From: Desulfarculales bacterium
Lineage (GTDB): Bacteria > Desulfobacterota > Desulfarculia > Desulfarculales > Desulfarculaceae
Length of the DNA stretch: 64,000 nucleotides
Direction of reading: 5' to 3'
Assembly: GCA_031267815.1 (NCBI GenBank)
Contig: JAIRYI010000029.1
Location: 1-64,000, forward strand
This document shows positions 54,056-63,927 of the stretch, piece after piece; positions within the stretch are counted from its first letter, which is position 1, and the number at the start of each line of letters is the position of its first letter. The notes under the pieces were generated by a model. That model ran no database searches. It was not told where the DNA came from and was given only the letters and a program-made list of their open reading frames with translations. A program made the translations under genes and the position numbers.

Positions 54056-56983
54056 TTAGTTTTCATACTCCGTTATTTGACAAATTATCTGAAATTGGCA
54101 ATAATTGCATCTTGTTCCTTTTTGGGGGTGAAAGTTGGCATTGGTAATATTATTCCATAAATGACGCAAAATGACATATATTGATTCTTTGCCTTCTGAA
54201 GATGAAAGAGAATTACCCTCTTCTTCCCGTGCCCCTTTCTCCGGTTCTTTGCTGCTCAATACTCTGCCTTGGATAATAAATTCAGGATATAGAGCCTGAA
54301 CCGCCGCCATATATATAGGTAATTGCAAGCTTTGAGGATAACCGTCAACAGGAGCCACATATTGGGCAGTTTGAGTGTATTTTGTGTTTTTATAGTCAGT
54401 TATCCGAAGTATGTTATCGTATCTGTCAATACGATCAATCCGGCCCTTTAAATAAGGCGGCTGGGTGACGTCAATCGCCGGCAGTCTGGAGAAGGTAAAT
54501 TCAATTTCTGCAGGTTTAAACATATTCATCGCTTTGATTTCAAAATTAATTACCTTAAATGCCTGCTGAAGCAGAGTTGTCTTGCGGCTGGCCGCAACGA
54601 ATTCGTGACAATTTACGGCAGACAACCCTTGCCATATTTCCTCCAATCTGGCTATAACAGTATCTTGATCCGTGTCAGAGCGGTAATTTTTAAAAAAAGC
54701 AGCCAACAAAGCATGAATAATATTCCCTTCATCCGCAGGCGACAATTCATATTGTCCGATGTCTTTTTTACTTAATTTCATGATATAATAAAAAAACCAC
54801 TGTTGAGGACAAAATTGATATGTGTCCAGGCTACTGGCAGACAATATTTCAAATTGTTTAAGCCAGCGTCTGAATTGCTGGACAGCTGATGGGGAAAAAT
54901 CCAGTTTGGGAGGCCATACCGGTAATGGTTTTATTTCATTTTGCCATTGCTGGGCCATTGATTTATTAAGAGCCATAGCCAAAGAAATTTGTCCGCCTTG
55001 ACCCCAAAGATTGTAACTTATAGCCAGTTTCAGGGATTCCAGGTCTTGTACTTTTTCTAAAGCGGGAATATGACCAAAAGCGCCTCCCTGGCCTGATGCG
55101 GCAGTGCTTATATTTTGTCCTAAAAGTTCAAATAGAAGCGATGCTTCCTTACTTTGACCGTCACTGTCCGCCAGAGGACTGGTAAAAACCGCCAATTGAC
55201 TGGTGCCGGCTAAGAGTGCAACTAATCTGCTCTCTTGACCATGAAATTCCTCTTGTTCGGTTCGCCATATCGGAATCGATTTGGTCAATTGCAACCGTTC
55301 CTGGCGGGAAAGGAAAAACGGTGAAGAAGGAACAGGGAAATCTCCCTGACATAATCCTCCTGCCAACAGAACTTTGAACCTCCCTCCCCAGGTATCTTCC
55401 AAACGCAAAACCTGAATACCAGGAACCGGATTTTCGTTACTGGCCTGGCGGCTTAAAAAATCTTGCAAAATATAAAAAGGATGTTGTGAGGAATTATTGT
55501 ATCCAATCTGAATACAAGAGTCTAAAAATTCCTGCAGCCGTTTGCCCAAGGTCTGCCAGGATTGCCAGTCACGGGCCAGTATAGTCCCGGGAGAAGGAAC
55601 AGATTTCAAGTTGCTTTGCCAAGAGAGCGGCACTTGAGGAAACAGATGGGGATAAATATCAGTTAAAATAATCTTCAAAAATGCGGTTAAATTATTTTCT
55701 TCGTATAATTGGTTAATAAAATTATATAAGTATTCGCAAAATTTTGTTAAAATTTTATATTTATCCTGGGCGCCCAGTTTATCAGTTTTTGTTTTCAGCC
55801 ATGTTCCCAAGGACTGTTCATGACTGTCAATATATCCTCCATCAGCAATTTGAGGAACCAAATTTTTTATTAATTTCTCATAAGGTTTGTCAGTTTTGCC
55901 GATAGCGCCCAAATATTGCAGGATATTATCAAAGAAATTGAAAAGATATGGATTTTGCAAGACTTTTATTAAATCGGAACAAGAAAATTTCCTAATTTCT
56001 AATTGTAATAATTCTAATAAAGCATTGACCAGGGGCATGGTCACAAGAGACTGGGCACGTCGGAAAAATAGAGGCAAACCCAATCGCTGGGCTACATCAC
56101 TGGCCATTTGTCCGTAAATACTCAAATCAGGGAAGATCAGAGCTATTTCATGGGGTGCGACCCCTTGTTTAAGCTGTTCTTTGGCATGGGTAAGCAAAAA
56201 TTCAACTTCACTATACCGGCCAGAAGGCCGGTGAGCTATAAGTTTACCATCCGTTTCCGGTAAATTTTCTTCTTGTAATAGAAGATAAGCTAATTTTTTA
56301 AAATAGTTATCAGTTATTGGATCCGGCCAGATTATTTCCACATTGTCCTGGTTTTCAAAAACGCGGGCAGTGCTATCCAGCAGGTTCAACAAATGATTGT
56401 TGCCCGAATATGGCAAAGCAAATTTTATGTTTATTTTTAGATGAGGGCCAAGGCCCATGAGCAACCGCATATCTGAAGCCCTGAGCCATAGAACATCTAT
56501 GGCTTCCAAAATACGGCAATGCTGAAAACTTTTGGGCAGACCTTCATATCGCAGGTAAGCAAGCAGGCGCTGCAAAGCATCCGCTTTATCTTCCAAATTA
56601 TTTTTATTTAGCAGATCCTGATAACCGGCCAACAACAAACCAAGTTGACGTAATCTTGCATTTTCCTGACTGTAAAGGTTTTCCGCATTTAAGCCGGCGG
56701 CTTTTAATTGCAGCAGCAAACGCCATAGCTGATGGGGTAAACGGCGGCTGTTTATAATTCCTTGGAAAGAAGGCATAGTTGCCACTTGCCGCAGAATAAG
56801 CGCCCCAGCCCAATCTTGCAATGCAGTTTTAGAGGCAGCCGGTATGTGCGCCAGCATATAATCCAATAAGCTATTTTGCCCCTCCCAGGTAAAATGATGA
56901 CCATCGCCCCAAATAACCGCCTCAGCGCACGAAAGACGATGCTGTTCCATGGCAAGGCGGCTGGGCCAGACAAATACTTTCAT
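54056..56983 (-). CDS. addB: AddB-like PD-(D/E)XK nuclease with Fe-S staple
   Basis: This 975-residue partner of AddA has a helicase-like fold without a usable Walker A motif at the N-terminus. The C-terminal nuclease has LKGRIDRIDRYDNILRITDY and QSLQLPIYMAAVQALYPEF. A cysteine in LDTYQFCPQQWFFYYIMK and three near the end (GTRCNYCQFQIICQ) are placed like the 4Fe-4S staple of AddB. The start overlaps the end of the transglycosylase gene by four bases (ATGA). Confidence 0.87.
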   Translation of the reverse strand: MKVFVWPSRLAMEQHRLSCAEAVIWGDGHHFTWEGQNSLLDYMLAHIPAASKTALQDWAGALILRQVATMPSFQGIINSRRLPHQLWRLLLQLKAAGLNAENLYSQENARLRQLGLLLAGYQDLLNKNNLEDKADALQRLLAYLRYEGLPKSFQHCRILEAIDVLWLRASDMRLLMGLGPHLKINIKFALPYSGNNHLLNLLDSTARVFENQDNVEIIWPDPITDNYFKKLAYLLLQEENLPETDGKLIAHRPSGRYSEVEFLLTHAKEQLKQGVAPHEIALIFPDLSIYGQMASDVAQRLGLPLFFRRAQSLVTMPLVNALLELLQLEIRKFSCSDLIKVLQNPYLFNFFDNILQYLGAIGKTDKPYEKLIKNLVPQIADGGYIDSHEQSLGTWLKTKTDKLGAQDKYKILTKFCEYLYNFINQLYEENNLTAFLKIILTDIYPHLFPQVPLSWQSNLKSVPSPGTILARDWQSWQTLGKRLQEFLDSCIQIGYNNSSQHPFYILQDFLSRQASNENPVPGIQVLRLEDTWGGRFKVLLAGGLCQGDFPVPSSPFFLSRQERLQLTKSIPIWRTEQEEFHGQESRLVALLAGTSQLAVFTSPLADSDGQSKEASLLFELLGQNISTAASGQGGAFGHIPALEKVQDLESLKLAISYNLWGQGGQISLAMALNKSMAQQWQNEIKPLPVWPPKLDFSPSAVQQFRRWLKQFEILSASSLDTYQFCPQQWFFYYIMKLSKKDIGQYELSPADEGNIIHALLAAFFKNYRSDTDQDTVIARLEEIWQGLSAVNCHEFVAASRKTTLLQQAFKVINFEIKAMNMFKPAEIEFTFSRLPAIDVTQPPYLKGRIDRIDRYDNILRITDYKNTKYTQTAQYVAPVDGYPQSLQLPIYMAAVQALYPEFIIQGRVLSSKEPEKGAREEEGNSLSSSEGKESIYVILRHLWNNITNANFHPQKGTRCNYCQFQIICQITEYEN

Positions 56984-57882
56984 AGTTTTTCCGCCAAGTT
57001 CAAAACCGCTTCCGCATAGGCCCGGCTTTTATTATAAGTCAGTATAACTTCCACCTGTTCCTCATAACTTAAACCGGTTTGCCAGCCATGTTCTTGCAGA
57101 TAGCGGCCAACGCTGGCAATGGCGTCATGGGGATTGTCAAGATCAATTTTATAATCGCCAGAACCATCACTGCCCCATTTTTCTATACTGGTCGGCATAA
57201 ACTGGCACCAACCTATAGCGCCGGCCGGTGAGCCTTTAATCAGCATTATTTCTTTTTGCCATAAATTGGTCAGCCGGATTAGAGCAAGCAATTCCTGACG
57301 GGCCCAGGCGGCACGGGTGGCAAACCGTGTCACAGATGCTTCACTGTCTAAATATTCCAGTTGATTTTTGGGCCAATTAACACGTAATATATCTATGGCA
57401 TCCTCTGTGTCCAGAGCCGCCTGAGATGCCAAGGCGTTGAAAGTCAAAGTGGCGCCAGTGAAACTGCCCAAATTTGATTCTATTAAAATAATGGCCAGGA
57501 TAATTTCCTGAGGTACAGAGGTAGTTTTTTGTGTATGTTCCAAAGAGGTTTTATAACGGGCCTGGAAATTTTTGGCCCGGAGCAAACTGTTTTTCGTAAA
57601 AAAATTTTTATAATCTCTGGACGCGTCCCGGTGGGAGAGCATTGAGGCCAGTAATTTCCCCTCAAAATGTACCTGTGATGATGTCAACCAGAGGTTGACC
57701 TGTCTCGAATCCAGACCCTGTGCAATCAGCCATTGCTGCAACGGGATGAATATTGAGGGAACCGGTTTCAATATGGAGGCGGAAGTGTTGTGGTTAAACG
57801 GTGCCTGGGCTAGTCCGGGAACAAGATGACATAATATGACAAAAAAAATAGAAACTAACAAAATTAAGGCATAACGCGGCAT
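56980..57882 (-). CDS. Lytic murein transglycosylase, MltB type
   Basis: This 300-residue protein has a signal sequence (LILLVSIFFVILCHLVPGLAQ), so it acts in the periplasm. There it would cleave the glycan between MurNAc and GlcNAc with formation of an anhydro end. The catalytic Glu is in ILAIILIESNLGSFTG (about 130-145). GAIGWCQFMPTSIEKWGSDG and DLDNPHDAIASVGRYLQEHG are family motifs. It is the last envelope gene before the DNA-repair genes in the same run. Confidence 0.9.
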   Translation of the reverse strand: MPRYALILLVSIFFVILCHLVPGLAQAPFNHNTSASILKPVPSIFIPLQQWLIAQGLDSRQVNLWLTSSQVHFEGKLLASMLSHRDASRDYKNFFTKNSLLRAKNFQARYKTSLEHTQKTTSVPQEIILAIILIESNLGSFTGATLTFNALASQAALDTEDAIDILRVNWPKNQLEYLDSEASVTRFATRAAWARQELLALIRLTNLWQKEIMLIKGSPAGAIGWCQFMPTSIEKWGSDGSGDYKIDLDNPHDAIASVGRYLQEHGWQTGLSYEEQVEVILTYNKSRAYAEAVLNLAEKL

Positions 57883-57934: not shown

Positions 57935-58252
57935 TTATTTATGGTTTGCCTCTTCTGAGGTATCAACAAAAGGTTGCACTTCAGGCAGAGCAATAGGTTG
58001 ATTTTCAGACCAGGCTAAAAAGGTATTAACGGGATCGCTGGAGACCCGGACAAAACCGTTTAACATTCCGCCTAATTCAATAAGCAGTGAACGGCAGGCC
58101 ATTTCGCCTTGAACCCAGCCATTATGTTTAATGATCACTTTATTGCCGACTACCTTCCCGTCGATGCCACCTTCAATTATCAAAAGATCGTCACTGAAAA
58201 TATCGCCCCGAATAAATGTTCCGGCAGCTAGAAGGCTTATCTTGCTAGCCAT
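57935..58252 (-). CDS. Bactofilin family cytoskeletal protein (CcmA-like)
   Basis: This 105-residue protein is mostly a single beta-helix domain: AAGTFIRGDIFSDDLLIIEG, GKVVGNKVIIKHNGWVQGEM, LLIELGGMLNGFVRV. A short Pro-rich tail follows. Bactofilins polymerise without nucleotide and place cell-wall enzymes, as CcmA does in Helicobacter. The start directly follows the M99 stop codon with no gap, and this with a transglycosylase next to it supports a cell-shape role. Confidence 0.88.
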   Translation of the reverse strand: MASKISLLAAGTFIRGDIFSDDLLIIEGGIDGKVVGNKVIIKHNGWVQGEMACRSLLIELGGMLNGFVRVSSDPVNTFLAWSENQPIALPEVQPFVDTSEEANHK

Positions 58253-60100
58253 TTAGTTCCCTTTTTGTTTTAAGTTGATCTGCCCCACTGTTTGTTCCGA
58301 ATGTAGCCATTTGAGAATAAGCTGATCACCTTTTTGCCAAGCTTCTTTTATAAAACCATCATCCAGCGTATCATTAGTATCAAGTTTAATTTCTTTGCCG
58401 CCAGACGATACCAGGAATAAAGTCAGCTGATCGGCAGGCCAAAGATTCGTTTTTACGTCTAAAAGTTTTAAATTATCACCTTGTCTGTATAACAGATCCT
58501 GACCAGGGCGATACAAAGCAAGATCTTCGTTTTGATTACTTAATAAAATATAGTCCCAGGCGGCTTCTTTGACAATTGCGACTTGCATGGATGCCAGGAG
58601 TTTTCTGTTCTGGCTGACCTCAATATTGTATACTGTCGAACCATCTTTCAAAACCTTGCCATAACCGGCGCGAAGATCTTGGGCGGTATCAATCACAAAG
58701 CCACGGTCGTCTCCGGTATTGAAGCGGCTGGGAGGGACGTAACCTTTAAAATTTACCTCCAACTTGTTCTGATTATCTGCAGGCAGTCCAACCATACCGA
58801 TAAGTTTAATCTTATCGCCATTTACTATACTGAGGCTTCCGCCGTTGGGAATATAACTGAGACGGTTCGCCACCTCCACCAGAAGAGAAGGCCCGCTGGG
58901 AGGAGACAGAGCAAGGGGCTGATTGTCTTCAATTTTAGAATCATCCCGCTGCGCAAGCGGCAAAACAGGCGTACCTACTGGTTCAACAATAATTTTTACC
59001 TGACCAATCAAAGCGTTATCTTTGCGTACAAGAATGCTGGTGGATTTATCGATTACAAAATTTTTTCTCAAATCATTTATAGAACCCAGGCCCATCACCG
59101 AACAATAAAAACCACGGCTGTAGTTGCCTTCAATATGCTCTACTCTGATCGTGTCGCCCGGTTTAATAGAAAGTTCTCCGTCTCTGGGTACAGCTCTCAA
59201 TATTTTTTCCTCATTTACTTTAATCATCAAATAATAGAATTCTGGGTTAGGTAAATACAAAGGCGGAGTTTGGGGGATTATATCAAAATATTTCATAAAG
59301 GCTTTGATCACCAGATTGTGATAATGCACCTTGATCCCCAGATCTTTAATGGCTTTACTGCATTCTACGCCAAAGGCCGGTATGTGACACTGACTAAGAG
59401 CATAGTATGACGCGCTTAAACGCTGCTCTTTATGGATAGAATCATTTTGCGCAGTGCGGTGGTTATTGAATAAAAAGCGATGGTCGGGATTTTCCACCTG
59501 GGCGTTGACTTCTTCCAAAACCGCAGTAGCTATATTTTCCAATTCGATGACTGTACCATCAGGCTTCACATAACGATCAGTATCAGCAATTATGCTTTGT
59601 CCGTAGCGCCTGGGATTGGCCATTTCATTTTCCCAGGTAAGACGGTAAAAACCGCTGCCTTCGTGCAAATTGAGCAAAATATCACTTTCGGCAATAAGAT
59701 CTTTTAATAATTCTATAATTTGCTTTTGCCGATCTGAAGTGACATTATCGCCAAATTGGCGGTTCATATCTCCGTCCGGCCCTCGATTATTTAAAATGAT
59801 AGAATAAAGATTTGCCCTTGGAACTACGATTAAGTTCCCTTTAGCTAAAGCGATATCCGCATACATATCAGCAGACAGAAATCCTCCCGCCTCATCACCT
59901 TGAATACCGCCAATAAGCATCATGGTCTTGCCGGGACGTACGCCATAAACCCGATAGATGTCAAGCTCATTGGGAGTGCCGACAAAATATTGCAAATGTT
60001 GATAATTGGGGTTTAAAGGATCAGGCGAGGCATATAAATTGCCCTCTCCTGTCAAAATTATAAATATAAAAAAACTAACAATGGCTAATAATCTGGTCAT
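58253..60100 (-). CDS. M99 family metallocarboxypeptidase (Csd4/Pgp1-like)
   Basis: This 615-residue protein has a signal peptide. The zinc site of the M14-like fold reads GGIQGDEAGGF, with Gln where most carboxypeptidases have His. That is the feature of Helicobacter Csd4, which trims murein tripeptides. The third ligand is in LLNLHEGSGFYR. Later parts (about 290-600) are beta-rich domains of unknown role. The product would act in the periplasm on peptidoglycan stem peptides. Neighbouring bactofilin and Csd6-like genes fit a cell-curvature module. Confidence 0.85.
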   Translation of the reverse strand: MTRLLAIVSFFIFIILTGEGNLYASPDPLNPNYQHLQYFVGTPNELDIYRVYGVRPGKTMMLIGGIQGDEAGGFLSADMYADIALAKGNLIVVPRANLYSIILNNRGPDGDMNRQFGDNVTSDRQKQIIELLKDLIAESDILLNLHEGSGFYRLTWENEMANPRRYGQSIIADTDRYVKPDGTVIELENIATAVLEEVNAQVENPDHRFLFNNHRTAQNDSIHKEQRLSASYYALSQCHIPAFGVECSKAIKDLGIKVHYHNLVIKAFMKYFDIIPQTPPLYLPNPEFYYLMIKVNEEKILRAVPRDGELSIKPGDTIRVEHIEGNYSRGFYCSVMGLGSINDLRKNFVIDKSTSILVRKDNALIGQVKIIVEPVGTPVLPLAQRDDSKIEDNQPLALSPPSGPSLLVEVANRLSYIPNGGSLSIVNGDKIKLIGMVGLPADNQNKLEVNFKGYVPPSRFNTGDDRGFVIDTAQDLRAGYGKVLKDGSTVYNIEVSQNRKLLASMQVAIVKEAAWDYILLSNQNEDLALYRPGQDLLYRQGDNLKLLDVKTNLWPADQLTLFLVSSGGKEIKLDTNDTLDDGFIKEAWQKGDQLILKWLHSEQTVGQINLKQKGN

Positions 60101-60102
60101 AA

Positions 60103-60834
60103 TTATTGCGTGGTTGAATCTGATTGAAGAACAGGGTATGAATTTACCAGAATAAGTTCACCTTGGCGGGAATAGAGTAAAAGTTCAATACGTTCAAAGA
60201 CCTTATTAGCAACAGGGAGCCTCGCGTTAATAGTACGGAAGCGTTGCACCGAAAATGGTGTTCCCCGGCGGTATTGCTCTGGTCTGCCAGAAGCATTCAA
60301 GCGCATGGGAGGCCAGACTTCAATCCATGGATTGCCTTCTCTGCTGCCGTGGGCAACCACAGCAATGTAACCCACTGCCGGTTCATTATCCTGTTCATTT
60401 ACAACATCAAAAGAAATCCGCATATCTCCTTGTTGAACATATTGCTCCATATTGCGAATACTGAGCAGAGGAGATGAAGTAGGTTCCTCCGGTTTGACTT
60501 CCGTATTTTCCTCGGGAATCAAAGGGTGTGTAATTTCCGATGCTTGGGTTTGATTGGCCAATGCTTGCTGCTGGCTGAGAAGAACATCTCTGGTTTCTTG
60601 ATCCCACATCAAGCCTTCCAGGCGTTCAACGCGGATCGATATCTGCTTGTTATCCTCGAGCATCTCTTCAACCATCAGATATTGACGGTAAAACACATAA
60701 CTTCCCGCAGCCAGTACCGCCGCCAATAGGAAAATAACAATAAAAATAAATTTTATCCACCAATTCCTTATAGTCATAGACTGTACCGGCCCCGATTTGT
60801 GTACAACAAGTATTTCGAAGTCATTGGTCCCCAT
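60103..60834 (-). CDS. Single-pass membrane protein of unknown function in the cell-shape cluster
   Basis: From the ATG at 60834 (after AAGGAG, 6-base spacing) the protein has 243 residues. About 25 cytoplasmic residues precede one helix (FIFIVIFLLAAVLAAGSYVF). A coiled coil with NKQISIRVERLEGLMWDQET follows, then a Pro/Glu linker and a beta-rich periplasmic domain (MRISFDVVNEQDNEPAVGYI, FSVQRFRTINARLPV). I do not recognise the family. It is 2 bases upstream of the M99 gene, so a scaffold linking enzymes to the membrane or to bactofilin is plausible, as inference. Confidence 0.75.
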   Translation of the reverse strand: MGTNDFEILVVHKSGPVQSMTIRNWWIKFIFIVIFLLAAVLAAGSYVFYRQYLMVEEMLEDNKQISIRVERLEGLMWDQETRDVLLSQQQALANQTQASEITHPLIPEENTEVKPEEPTSSPLLSIRNMEQYVQQGDMRISFDVVNEQDNEPAVGYIAVVAHGSREGNPWIEVWPPMRLNASGRPEQYRRGTPFSVQRFRTINARLPVANKVFERIELLLYSRQGELILVNSYPVLQSDSTTQ

Positions 60835-60874
60835 CTGGCACTCCTTGACAATGGACATATCCCGTCAGTAAGAA

Positions 60875-62623
60875 TCAATCACTGGCAACCCAGCTTTCGC
60901 GCGTAATCAGCCAACGCCTGTTTCGTTTTACAATTTCCAACGTCTTGATACCAACATCTCTGGTCCAGTCAGAACGATAATATTGTTTAAAAGTAATTTC
61001 CGCATTATTATCATTTTTAAATTTGATAACTAAATTATCAGTTCTTATCCTGATAGTTTTATAAACTCTGAATAACTCAGTTTTATGATTTTTCCAGGCA
61101 GAATAATTCTGCCCTCTGTCACTTTTAAAATCATTGGCATAATAAGACATATAATTATTAAGATTCTTACTTCCCCAGGCAGCCAGCCAATTTTTCAACA
61201 TCAACCTTACTTCATCATCCCGTTGGCTCTGCTCCGGAGGGGAAGCGGCAATTGTGCCGGCTGTCCCGCTGTCTTTGCCTGTTGCTGGATTTGGGGCGGA
61301 GTTTGAAGAGATCGCGGCATTGTTAGCTACAGCAAGAGGAGGCACCTCCGGGGCGGCCTTAGCCAGATCTCTGGCCTGGTTCTGATTATCCAATATCAGA
61401 GAAGATCTAATCAGTCCGGCCTGCCGGGGATCATCTCCCTCCAAATAAAAACGCCGGGTAATATTATAGTCTTGTCTGTTAATAGATATTATCTGATTAG
61501 CTACCAGAACCCATTGGTTACCCAGACCGAAAACACTCATGCCGGTTGTAGTTTTAACCTGACCTTTCATTTGCGCCCAACGCCATATTTTCTCTCCCAG
61601 CAAATCAAGTGTCGGCTGTTTTGAATAATGGAAATCTCCCGGCGGATTCAGGAGACCTAAACCATAACCTACTCGAGGGACTTGCGCGGAAAGATAAAGC
61701 GATGAAATTGTCTGTAACCAGTCACATGCCTTAATTCTTTGGTTAAGTTCAGGTAAAGACAGGGACTCCACTACAATTACCGGGGTCACCTGTTCTTTGA
61801 TAAGTTCACCTAAATGAGCGATATCTTCATTGCGCATGGCAATACATCCATTACTGGAGCGGGGTTGCAGATCCTGGTTGGTGCCGTGAATGTATATGCC
61901 ATTGCCGTTGCGCGACTGATCCATATCAAACGCGTTGGGATAATCCAGATGAATAGCCTGATATCCGAAAACACTCATCTGTCGGTCGATATAACGATGC
62001 GTGGTAAAATAGATGCCTACCGGAGTACGGGAGTCCCCTTCCGTTTGTTTGCTTCCCGCGTTGGCGCCGGTAGCGCAAGGATATTCATATTCTAATACCA
62101 TTTCACCCATATAACGCAAAACCATTAGGCGCTGGCGGGATTTATCCACCACCAGAAGGCGGGTTTCAGGTAATTTGCCCTCAAAACAAAAAACAAAGGT
62201 GGGAGTACCGTCATCACGGGAAGCTAAAGGCTGATTAAGGGGTGATTGAGATGACGGATCAGTAGCGGAAAATTGCTGCTCTGGCAAATCTACGGGAGCA
62301 AGAGGCTGTTCCGCTGTTATCTTGCTGTCATCAGCATCGCGGCTGTTGGGCGCGGGCGCCGCCTGCATGCCGGAGTCATTAGCATCGCGGTTGTTATCCG
62401 CTTCCTGGTTTTCCTGTTTGGCCAGAACAATGGGGACAGAGACGGAACGGGAATTAAGCGTATCTGGGGAAGGCAAAGCCGCGGCTTCGGATTTATCATC
62501 ATGCCACCATTGCCAAAGCATGGCTCCGGCTATGAAAGCGACAATGACTATAAGCACCGATGATAACCATAAAATAATTTTTTGTCCCCGTTTTTTACGC
62601 GGGGCGAATAAGCGGCGTTTCAT
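60875..62623 (-). CDS. L,D-transpeptidase with C-terminal NTF2-like domain (Csd6 type)
   Basis: This protein of about 582 residues has one N-terminal membrane anchor (IILWLSSVLIVIVAFIAGAM) and a low-complexity linker with near-repeats NRDANDSGMQAAPAPNSRDA. The YkuD catalytic domain has PCATGANAGSKQTEGDSRTP, GIYIHGTNQDLQPRSSNGCI with the catalytic Cys, and AMRNEDI. A helical part follows, and an NTF2-like domain at the end (about 475-580, LAAWGSKNLNNYMSYYANDF). This order matches Helicobacter Csd6, an L,D-carboxypeptidase affecting helical shape. The start is uncertain: ATG at 62623 or 62683. Confidence 0.87.
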   Translation of the reverse strand: MKRRLFAPRKKRGQKIILWLSSVLIVIVAFIAGAMLWQWWHDDKSEAAALPSPDTLNSRSVSVPIVLAKQENQEADNNRDANDSGMQAAPAPNSRDADDSKITAEQPLAPVDLPEQQFSATDPSSQSPLNQPLASRDDGTPTFVFCFEGKLPETRLLVVDKSRQRLMVLRYMGEMVLEYEYPCATGANAGSKQTEGDSRTPVGIYFTTHRYIDRQMSVFGYQAIHLDYPNAFDMDQSRNGNGIYIHGTNQDLQPRSSNGCIAMRNEDIAHLGELIKEQVTPVIVVESLSLPELNQRIKACDWLQTISSLYLSAQVPRVGYGLGLLNPPGDFHYSKQPTLDLLGEKIWRWAQMKGQVKTTTGMSVFGLGNQWVLVANQIISINRQDYNITRRFYLEGDDPRQAGLIRSSLILDNQNQARDLAKAAPEVPPLAVANNAAISSNSAPNPATGKDSGTAGTIAASPPEQSQRDDEVRLMLKNWLAAWGSKNLNNYMSYYANDFKSDRGQNYSAWKNHKTELFRVYKTIRIRTDNLVIKFKNDNNAEITFKQYYRSDWTRDVGIKTLEIVKRNRRWLITRESWVASD

Positions 62624-63126
62624 ATCCTTTGACCGCGCCTTTATAATTGGACAAAGTATAAAATTAAGCCGCTCAGCGGCCAAAGATAATTTTTAATTAA
62701 TATCATAAAAAACATAAAAAATCACCAGACGCGGATGAGAGAGATTACCCATAAAATAATTACCCAACTTGAAGCCTGTTGCATATTGTAAATATGCAGG
62801 GCCTGAAGTGGGTCGCGGATGCCAAATTACAACAAGTATCAACTTATTTTAATTTGCAATAAAAACTTAAGTCCGTGTAGTTTTTATTGCCCGCTTGAGT
62901 CAAAAACGCGATTTCGACCCAAGCGCCAGAAATACTAAGTATTTCTGGCGCGACATCTTGGCGCGCAATTCTAATTCCCGATAAAAATTATAAAATTTTT
63001 TATCGGGAATTAGAATTTAGACAATAACCGCGAATATTGACGGATTTGATATTTTGACTTTAGTTTTATTGCAATATATCCGTAAAAATAATTATGATAT
63101 TCCAACAGTTAGACGGAGAGGGACAT
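62624..63126. other. Gene-free region packed with inverted repeats
   Basis: Four structures follow one another. TGCATATT-gta-AATATGCA (about 62779-62797) lies in the second copy of the 7112 repeat (62769-62795). GCAATAAAAAC/GTTTTTATTGC brackets 13 bases (about 62856-62890). CGCCAGAAATACT-a-AGTATTTCTGGCG is nearly a perfect palindrome (about 62924-62950). A 21-bp perfect stem of 62967-62987 with 62997-63017 centres on ATCGGGAATTAG. No open frame is supported. The promoters of the divergent minus-strand run and of rlpA should be here. Confidence 0.65.
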
Positions 63127-63927
63127 ATGTGGGCACTGTTAAGAGAAAGTTTGATTTTTTTGAGCATAACGCTGTTAATCAGTTTTTCCTGCTTAAGTTG
63201 CGGCAGCAAGAAAGCTACATATCCCGACGGTAGCTACCCTGTGCCGGCAACAACCAAACCAGACGGAACTCCTTTGCCTACGCAACGTCCTTATACTGTC
63301 AATGGCCGTACTTATAACCCTCTTCCCACTGCCGAAGGTTATAGGGAAACTGGTATAGCATCCTGGTATGGGCCAAATTTTCACGGCCGTTCCACCAGTA
63401 ACGGAGAAAAGTATGATATGGAAGCCATGACCGCGGCGCATAAAACTCTGCCTATGAACACTTGGGTTCAAGTTGCTAATATTAAAACCGGACAGAGCGC
63501 GGTAGTACGCGTCAATGACCGAGGCCCTTTTGTTGATAAACGCATCATTGATCTATCTAAAGCGGCAGCGCGGCAAGTCGGGGTGCTGGCTCCGGGGACG
63601 GCCATGGTGGAAGTAACGGCTCTTGGCTATCGCCGGCAAGGCACAGGAGTAAATAATGTCCCCGCCCAATATGAACAGCCGGCTTCTTACAATGAAGGCA
63701 TGTTTACTGTACAGGTAGGAGCTTTCACCAATCAGAATAATGCCGAACGCCTGGCCGGACAGATCAGGGCAAACTGGGGAGAAACTTTTGTGGTCCGTTA
63801 CGATCGTGGGGATCAAATATTCTACCGCGTTCGGGTGGGGCGATTTACCCGGCTGGAACAGGCCGAAGCTTTGCAGTCCAAATTAAGGGATGCCGGTCTG
63901 AATGAAGCTATAACCGTGGGTTGGTAA
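63127..63927 (+). CDS. rlpA: Septal-ring lytic transglycosylase RlpA family lipoprotein (DPBB and SPOR domains)
   Basis: This protein of about 266 residues has a lipoprotein signal ending SFSCLSCGS. The double-psi beta-barrel domain (about 75-165) has ETGIASWYGPNFHGRSTSNG, MEAMTAAHKTLPMNTWVQV and VRVNDRGPFVDKRIIDLS with the expected catalytic Asp. A SPOR domain closes the protein (FTVQVGAFTNQNNAERLAG, YRVRVGRFTRLEQAEALQS) and binds denuded glycan at the septum. The ATG at 63127 follows GGAGAGGG. It is divergent from the cell-shape run. The last 73 bases of the window hold nothing recognised. Confidence 0.92.
   Translation: MWALLRESLIFLSITLLISFSCLSCGSKKATYPDGSYPVPATTKPDGTPLPTQRPYTVNGRTYNPLPTAEGYRETGIASWYGPNFHGRSTSNGEKYDMEAMTAAHKTLPMNTWVQVANIKTGQSAVVRVNDRGPFVDKRIIDLSKAAARQVGVLAPGTAMVEVTALGYRRQGTGVNNVPAQYEQPASYNEGMFTVQVGAFTNQNNAERLAGQIRANWGETFVVRYDRGDQIFYRVRVGRFTRLEQAEALQSKLRDAGLNEAITVGW

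Follow-up and report, generated by a model that had tools for sequence, protein, structure and literature searches.

A predicted wall-trimming operon and a candidate bactofilin adaptor in the Desulfarculaceae

Why should a bacterium encode two predicted wall-trimming enzymes, a membrane protein without a family, and a bactofilin side by side on one strand? The question is raised by a locus in a 64,000-nucleotide stretch of DNA (the window; positions 1 to 64,000 of contig JAIRYI010000029.1, assembly GCA_031267815.1) from a Desulfarculales bacterium of the family Desulfarculaceae, a relative of sulfate reducers, the genome of which is 2.4 Mb in size with a G+C content of about 45%. Five open reading frames were confirmed on the minus strand in the order LDT (a predicted L,D-carboxypeptidase), MEM (an unnamed bitopic membrane protein), M99 (a predicted D,L-carboxypeptidase), a short bactofilin, and MltB (a lytic transglycosylase). 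The gaps between them are 16, 2, 0, and 52 bases, in keeping with the tight linkage (0 to 52 bases) noted in the original prediction for this locus. We suggest, with a probability of roughly two in three, that the first four genes form a stem-peptide trimming operon that is wired to the bactofilin cytoskeleton and bends the cell, with MEM as the tether. The enzymes and their link to cell shape are already known; the operon and the adaptor are the new part, and a search of the open literature found no description of an LDT-MEM-M99 operon or of MEM.

LDT occupies positions 60875 to 62683 (minus strand, as for the other genes of the run) and carries an N-terminal membrane anchor. Its start is either the TTG at 62683 or the ATG at 62623, the latter being the start chosen originally. 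Pfam finds a YkuD domain (8e-21) followed by Cds6_C (6e-16), both over the Pfam cut-offs, and the best sequence match in the PDB is 7o21 (Bd1075 of Bdellovibrio bacteriovorus; 4e-33), followed by 4xzz (Csd6 of Helicobacter pylori) and 6xj6 (Pgp2 of Campylobacter jejuni). All three are demonstrated L,D-carboxypeptidases and give their cells a curved or helical shape (PMC8938487). L,D-transpeptidases typically have an Arg at the second position after the catalytic Cys, while the carboxypeptidases have another residue there (PMC8938487). In LDT, the catalytic motifs read HGTNQ...SSNGCIA (Cys280; YkuD domain at 61772-62161) and the residue in question is Ala, as in Csd6 and Pgp2; its relatives have Ala, Val, Thr, or Glu, and none has Arg. 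LDT is hence a member of the Csd6/Pgp2/Bd1075 family with the signature of a carboxypeptidase, not a transpeptidase, and this is the activity that we predict for it. Bd1075, the nearest solved protein, shares with LDT the YkuD L,D-carboxypeptidase domain and an NTF2 domain with a terminal Trp. The C-terminal Trp of LDT (...ESW) aligns with Bd1075 W303, which is required for convex-side targeting (PMC8938487). Unlike Bd1075, LDT has a membrane anchor and two NTF2 domains in tandem, and its gene shares an operon with those of MEM, M99, and bactofilin; Csd6 and Pgp2 have one NTF2 domain and an N-terminal dimerisation region. The tandem NTF2-like region of LDT spans 60887-61768. Its first copy (residues 306-443; 61355-61768) is strongly diverged in the host and was recognised with a hidden Markov model (HMM) trained on relatives alone (domain E 2e-16), and the second (60887-61246), a complete one, is the Cds6_C domain found by both Pfam and HMM; class relatives outside the family have two recognisable copies.

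The second predicted trimmer, M99 (58253-60100), matches Pfam Peptidase_M99 at 1.7e-36 and, in a phmmer search of PDB sequences, Csd4 (4q6m) at 1e-28. Alignment to Csd4 places the metal motif at Q67-x-x-E70 ... H146 and E246, in VECSK, at the position of the catalytic Glu. The same QxxE...H metal site has been described for Csd4 (PMC4220969), and the Gln zinc ligand that had been read from the sequence of M99 is therefore borne out. A pattern search recovered the motif in 46 of 47 M99 relatives; in the 47th (L064), the pattern matched at the wrong place. M99 thus belongs to peptidase family M99 and is of the Csd4/Pgp1 type (H. pylori and C. jejuni, respectively), a predicted D,L-carboxypeptidase. 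It differs from Csd4 in its length (615 residues vs about 437), with about 340 residues beyond the catalytic domain, and in sharing an operon with an L,D-carboxypeptidase. Together with the bactofilin match discussed below, the Pfam and PDB results uphold the three original assignments (an L,D-transpeptidase fold with NTF2-like tail of Csd6 type, an M99 peptidase of Csd4 type, and a bactofilin).

Is this arrangement more than an accident of one genome? M99 was found in 48 of 60 near relatives, and 47 M99 loci of the class were read. LDT is present at 44, the remaining three being cut by contig ends, and in all 44 loci that hold both genes, LDT and M99 share a strand and flank an MEM-sized gene. 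A MEM-like bitopic gene was recognised in 43 of the 44, L048 being the exception, and the MEM of the host family is homologous over its length to that of the largest other family (hhalign probability 98.6%, E 7e-16). Bactofilin follows M99 directly in the host family and in an order-level neighbour, and it follows the triad in several distant families as well. LDT-MEM-M99 is a conserved unit, to which bactofilin is added chiefly in the family of the host. In a phylum sample of 395 genomes, 72 have M99 and 97 have Cds6_C; a Cds6_C protein occurs in 67 of the 72 genomes with M99 vs 30 of the 323 without (p about 1e-45, Fisher test uncorrected for relatedness). Elsewhere in the phylum, outside the class, 40 M99 loci were read; LDT is the neighbour of M99 at 29 of them, and MEM could be recognised at 23. 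In 55 of 71 genomes, MEM and LDT are no more than 2.5 kb apart, and since the two stay close even where a Csd4-type M99 sits elsewhere, as it does in some of these genomes, they are the innermost pair. Such recurrence across class and phylum puts the gene order far beyond chance. The original prediction had proposed a gene-order survey of M99 genes, with scattering in relatives as the outcome that would speak against it; the survey found the linkage conserved in the class and in a large part of the phylum.

The arrangement had been called Helicobacter-like, which misdescribes it, as csd4 (HP1075), csd6 (HP0518), and ccmA (HP1542) are scattered in the H. pylori genome; csd6 and pgp2 are not known to be linked to csd4 and pgp1. 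Among solved proteins, LDT is nearest to that of Bdellovibrio.

The gene between the two enzymes had been left as an unexplained "unknown membrane protein", and it turns out to be the most informative part of the locus. MEM (60103-60858) lies between LDT and M99 in relatives, and searches against Pfam, NCBIfam, and PDB sequences gave no family. Stray matches to ion channels and to ATP synthase b were read as low-complexity or coil noise. The AlphaFold2 model of MEM (predicted local distance difference test score 89.5) has two short strands (residues 14-18 and 26-30) that form a cytoplasmic β-hairpin (residues 14-30; 60769-60819), a long membrane helix running into a coiled coil (residues 32-105; 60544-60765), and a periplasmic β-sandwich (residues 132-242; 60133-60465). 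Foldseek with this model returned generic β-sandwich matches only, with poor TM-scores.

The N-terminal part of MEM points in a definite direction. When 8,486 open reading frames, only 27 of which encode M23 peptidases, were ranked against an HMM of the MEM N-terminus, M23 peptidases made up seven of the top eight non-MEM matches. Moreover, of 18 proteins fetched from other genomes because they match MEM only N-terminally (in a whole-genome search, covering only profile positions of about 8-110), 17 are M23 peptidases. A profile-profile alignment of MEM with M23 N-termini gave a probability of 98.1% and E 1e-13 for a set of M23 proteins preselected by their match to the MEM profile; because of this choice, the ranking is the stronger test of homology. 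The hairpin alone makes too short an HMM to split M23 proteins from noise, and it is the combination of hairpin, transmembrane helix, and coil that is informative. The M23 proteins compared come from the phylum and share the N-terminal layout of LmdC, LmdC itself being outside the alignment. In LmdC, this hairpin binds the bactofilin BacA and recruits the enzyme to the inner curvature of the Rhodospirillum rubrum cell (PMC10945521).

MEM is nevertheless not an LmdC, although its N-terminal hairpin, transmembrane helix, and coil are like those of LmdC-type M23 proteins. Sequence search, AlphaFold2 model, and Foldseek agree that it has no M23 peptidase domain and that a β-sandwich stands in its place. 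M23 proteins are encoded in the host genome, with none in the LDT-MEM-M99-bactofilin operon; the helical-shape programme of H. pylori includes the M23 proteins Csd1 and Csd2, in an operon with CcmA, besides Csd5 and Csd7. In two distant lineages (L175:7271-8839 and L176:8121-9857), LDT carries a MEM-type sandwich as a C-terminal fusion. The fused LDT of L176 also has a separate MEM beside it. The LmdC-like N-terminus, the sandwich that replaces the peptidase, and the sandwich-LDT fusions suggest that MEM is an adaptor that tethers two sequential trimmers to bactofilin, and MEM probably ties the wall trimmers and bactofilin together through a predicted binding of the latter. The closest precedent is the LmdC M23-bactofilin module of Hyphomonas neptunium and R. 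rubrum, also bitopic, with cytoplasmic β-hairpin, transmembrane helix, coiled coil, and a bactofilin partner (PMC10945521). The difference is that the MEM sandwich has no recognisable enzyme domain and the hydrolases are separate proteins of other chemistry. A second likeness is to Csd5 and Csd7 of H. pylori, nonenzymatic transmembrane proteins that join the bactofilin CcmA to wall enzymes or to the wall (PMC9507126); no common family with MEM is shown, and the periplasmic domain of Csd5 is an SH3 domain where that of MEM is a β-sandwich.

The bactofilin of the operon (57935-58252) is short. Its Pfam match (1.5e-8) is above the cut-off, and the top three PDB folds for its AlphaFold2 model are all bactofilins, with weak E-values (0.03-0.1); the model superimposes on 6ria at 1.3 Å over 70 columns. 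Only about 65-70 residues match and are ordered, vs the core of about 100 residues in full-length bactofilins. The host has one M99 and two bactofilins, and a family alignment sets the short protein apart, as a paralogue, from the canonical bactofilin of the host. The gene for the latter (host contig G000:C61; L107:6015-7445) immediately precedes two genes of ATP synthase b type and the atp operon, and a bactofilin gene stands beside atpF-like genes in all eight class relatives checked (L089-L096). As Csd5 of H. pylori makes contact with ATP synthase as well as with CcmA (PMC9507126), this linkage may be meaningful.

In the mechanism that we propose, LDT, anchored in the inner membrane, would remove D-Ala and convert tetrapeptides to tripeptides, and M99 would next remove meso-diaminopimelic acid, leaving dipeptides. 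The short bactofilin would assemble on the cytoplasmic side, alone or with the canonical bactofilin of the host. MEM would bind bactofilin through its cytoplasmic LmdC-type β-hairpin and then span the membrane, so that its periplasmic β-sandwich could hold LDT, and perhaps M99, above the bactofilin zone. Trimming limited to one side would alter local cross-linking and growth, and the cell would bend.

Several observations weigh against this proposal. Most class relatives outside the host family lack a bactofilin at the LDT-MEM-M99 locus; these class members mostly have one bactofilin, elsewhere in the genome, and several incomplete M99-bearing genomes show no bactofilin at all. At a locus without bactofilin, MEM would therefore need a bactofilin encoded elsewhere or another partner. 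With about 70 ordered residues in the short bactofilin, its self-assembly is putative. Within the phylum, M99 of the Csd4-proper type lacks linkage to LDT, and the 11 non-class M99 loci without LDT include the M99 proteins nearest to Csd4 proper. The locus counts, like the Fisher test, are uncorrected for relatedness, and the enzyme activities and the shape of the host are predictions.

The scarcity of bactofilin at the locus in most of the class raises the possibility that MEM is not a bactofilin binder and that its hairpin, transmembrane helix, and coil form a generic anchoring module, recruiting some other cytoplasmic partner such as a wall-synthesis complex. The MEM hairpin is short, and the tested case of a hairpin binding bactofilin is LmdC of two species (PMC10945521), both of which leave room for this alternative. 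Set against it, the homologous LmdC module does bind bactofilin (PMC10945521), the triad is immediately followed by bactofilin in several distant families as well as in that of the host, and MEM and bactofilin are the pair that survives loss of the enzymes: in a host-family genus that lost M99, MEM-bactofilin is kept in eight of eight genomes, including those that have lost LDT as well, with LDT detected in four. We regard a generic anchor as a minority possibility. One class relative, with a 2.1 Mb genome in which neither bactofilin nor M99 is detectable, has only a piece of MEM, interrupted by two stop codons, next to an intact LDT (G028:C34:5447-5722), as if MEM decays once bactofilin and M99 are lost.

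What shape, then, would the operon that we propose give to its host? The genome of Desulfocarbo indianensis carries the full LDT-MEM-M99-bactofilin set, and so does L041, which we take to be Desulfarculus baarsii, a vibrioid. D. indianensis is vibrio-shaped (PMC4559730). Because of this and because the nearest solved relative of LDT is Bd1075, curvature rather than a helix is predicted, and a curved (vibrioid) host cell is likely. Of the curved or helical cell originally expected, the curved part accordingly gains support from Desulfocarbo, while a helix is not specifically predicted and vibrioid is the safer call. It could be argued that stem-peptide trimming by the operon serves the maturation or recycling of the wall in general (through loss of cross-link acceptors, or as a stress response) and that the operon has no role dedicated to curvature. 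Carboxypeptidases of the LDT and M99 types work on the whole sacculus, a documented shape is tied to a paper for one host-family genome only, and Csd1-type M23 homologues occur also in noncurved species (PMC3310797). However, every characterised member of both enzyme families (Csd6, Pgp2, Bd1075, Csd4, and Pgp1) is a determinant of helical or curved shape, the distribution of Csd4/Pgp1 homologues in the delta- and epsilonproteobacteria follows that of curved and helical species, as was noted earlier (PMC3310789, PMC3310797), and a bactofilin-type tether implies that trimming is localised. A housekeeping role of this kind is therefore unlikely.

The operon as we read it ends with bactofilin. 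MltB (56980-57882; Pfam SLT_2, 7.5e-46), which the original prediction had counted in the module, lies outside the range of 57935-62623 given for that finding, and was rejected as a member. In host-family relatives, 2-3.5 kb of flavodoxin-like, amidohydrolase, and sometimes cupin genes (names given by eye from sequence, not by family search) separate it from bactofilin, and it adjoins AddB-AddA. That the five-gene run is one functional unit in the host, with the transglycosylase recruited to it, is very improbable, as the position of MltB on the same strand 52 bases after bactofilin is explained by loss of the intervening genes in a 2.4 Mb genome, and relatives with enough contig keep it apart with AddB-AddA. 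Upstream of the operon lies a divergent RlpA-type lytic transglycosylase with a SPOR domain (63094-63924); it was not found there in the relatives read.

How wall-trimming carboxypeptidases become confined to one side of the cell is a general question, and the authors of the Bd1075 study state that targeting to one lateral side has no known basis (PMC8938487). The operon offers a testable answer. Since two sequential trimmers, a bactofilin, and a membrane protein whose hairpin is of the bactofilin-binding type are encoded together, the link between them is a specific and mutable prediction. With about even odds, MEM is the founder of a new family of adaptors that are bactofilin clients, in which a cytoplasmic LmdC-type hairpin is combined with an interchangeable periplasmic domain and keeps the separate L,D- and D,L-carboxypeptidases to one side of the cell. 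If this is true, the MEM adaptor would account for the aiming of periplasmic trimming in Desulfobacterota, and hairpin proteins would constitute a general, modular plug for bactofilin.

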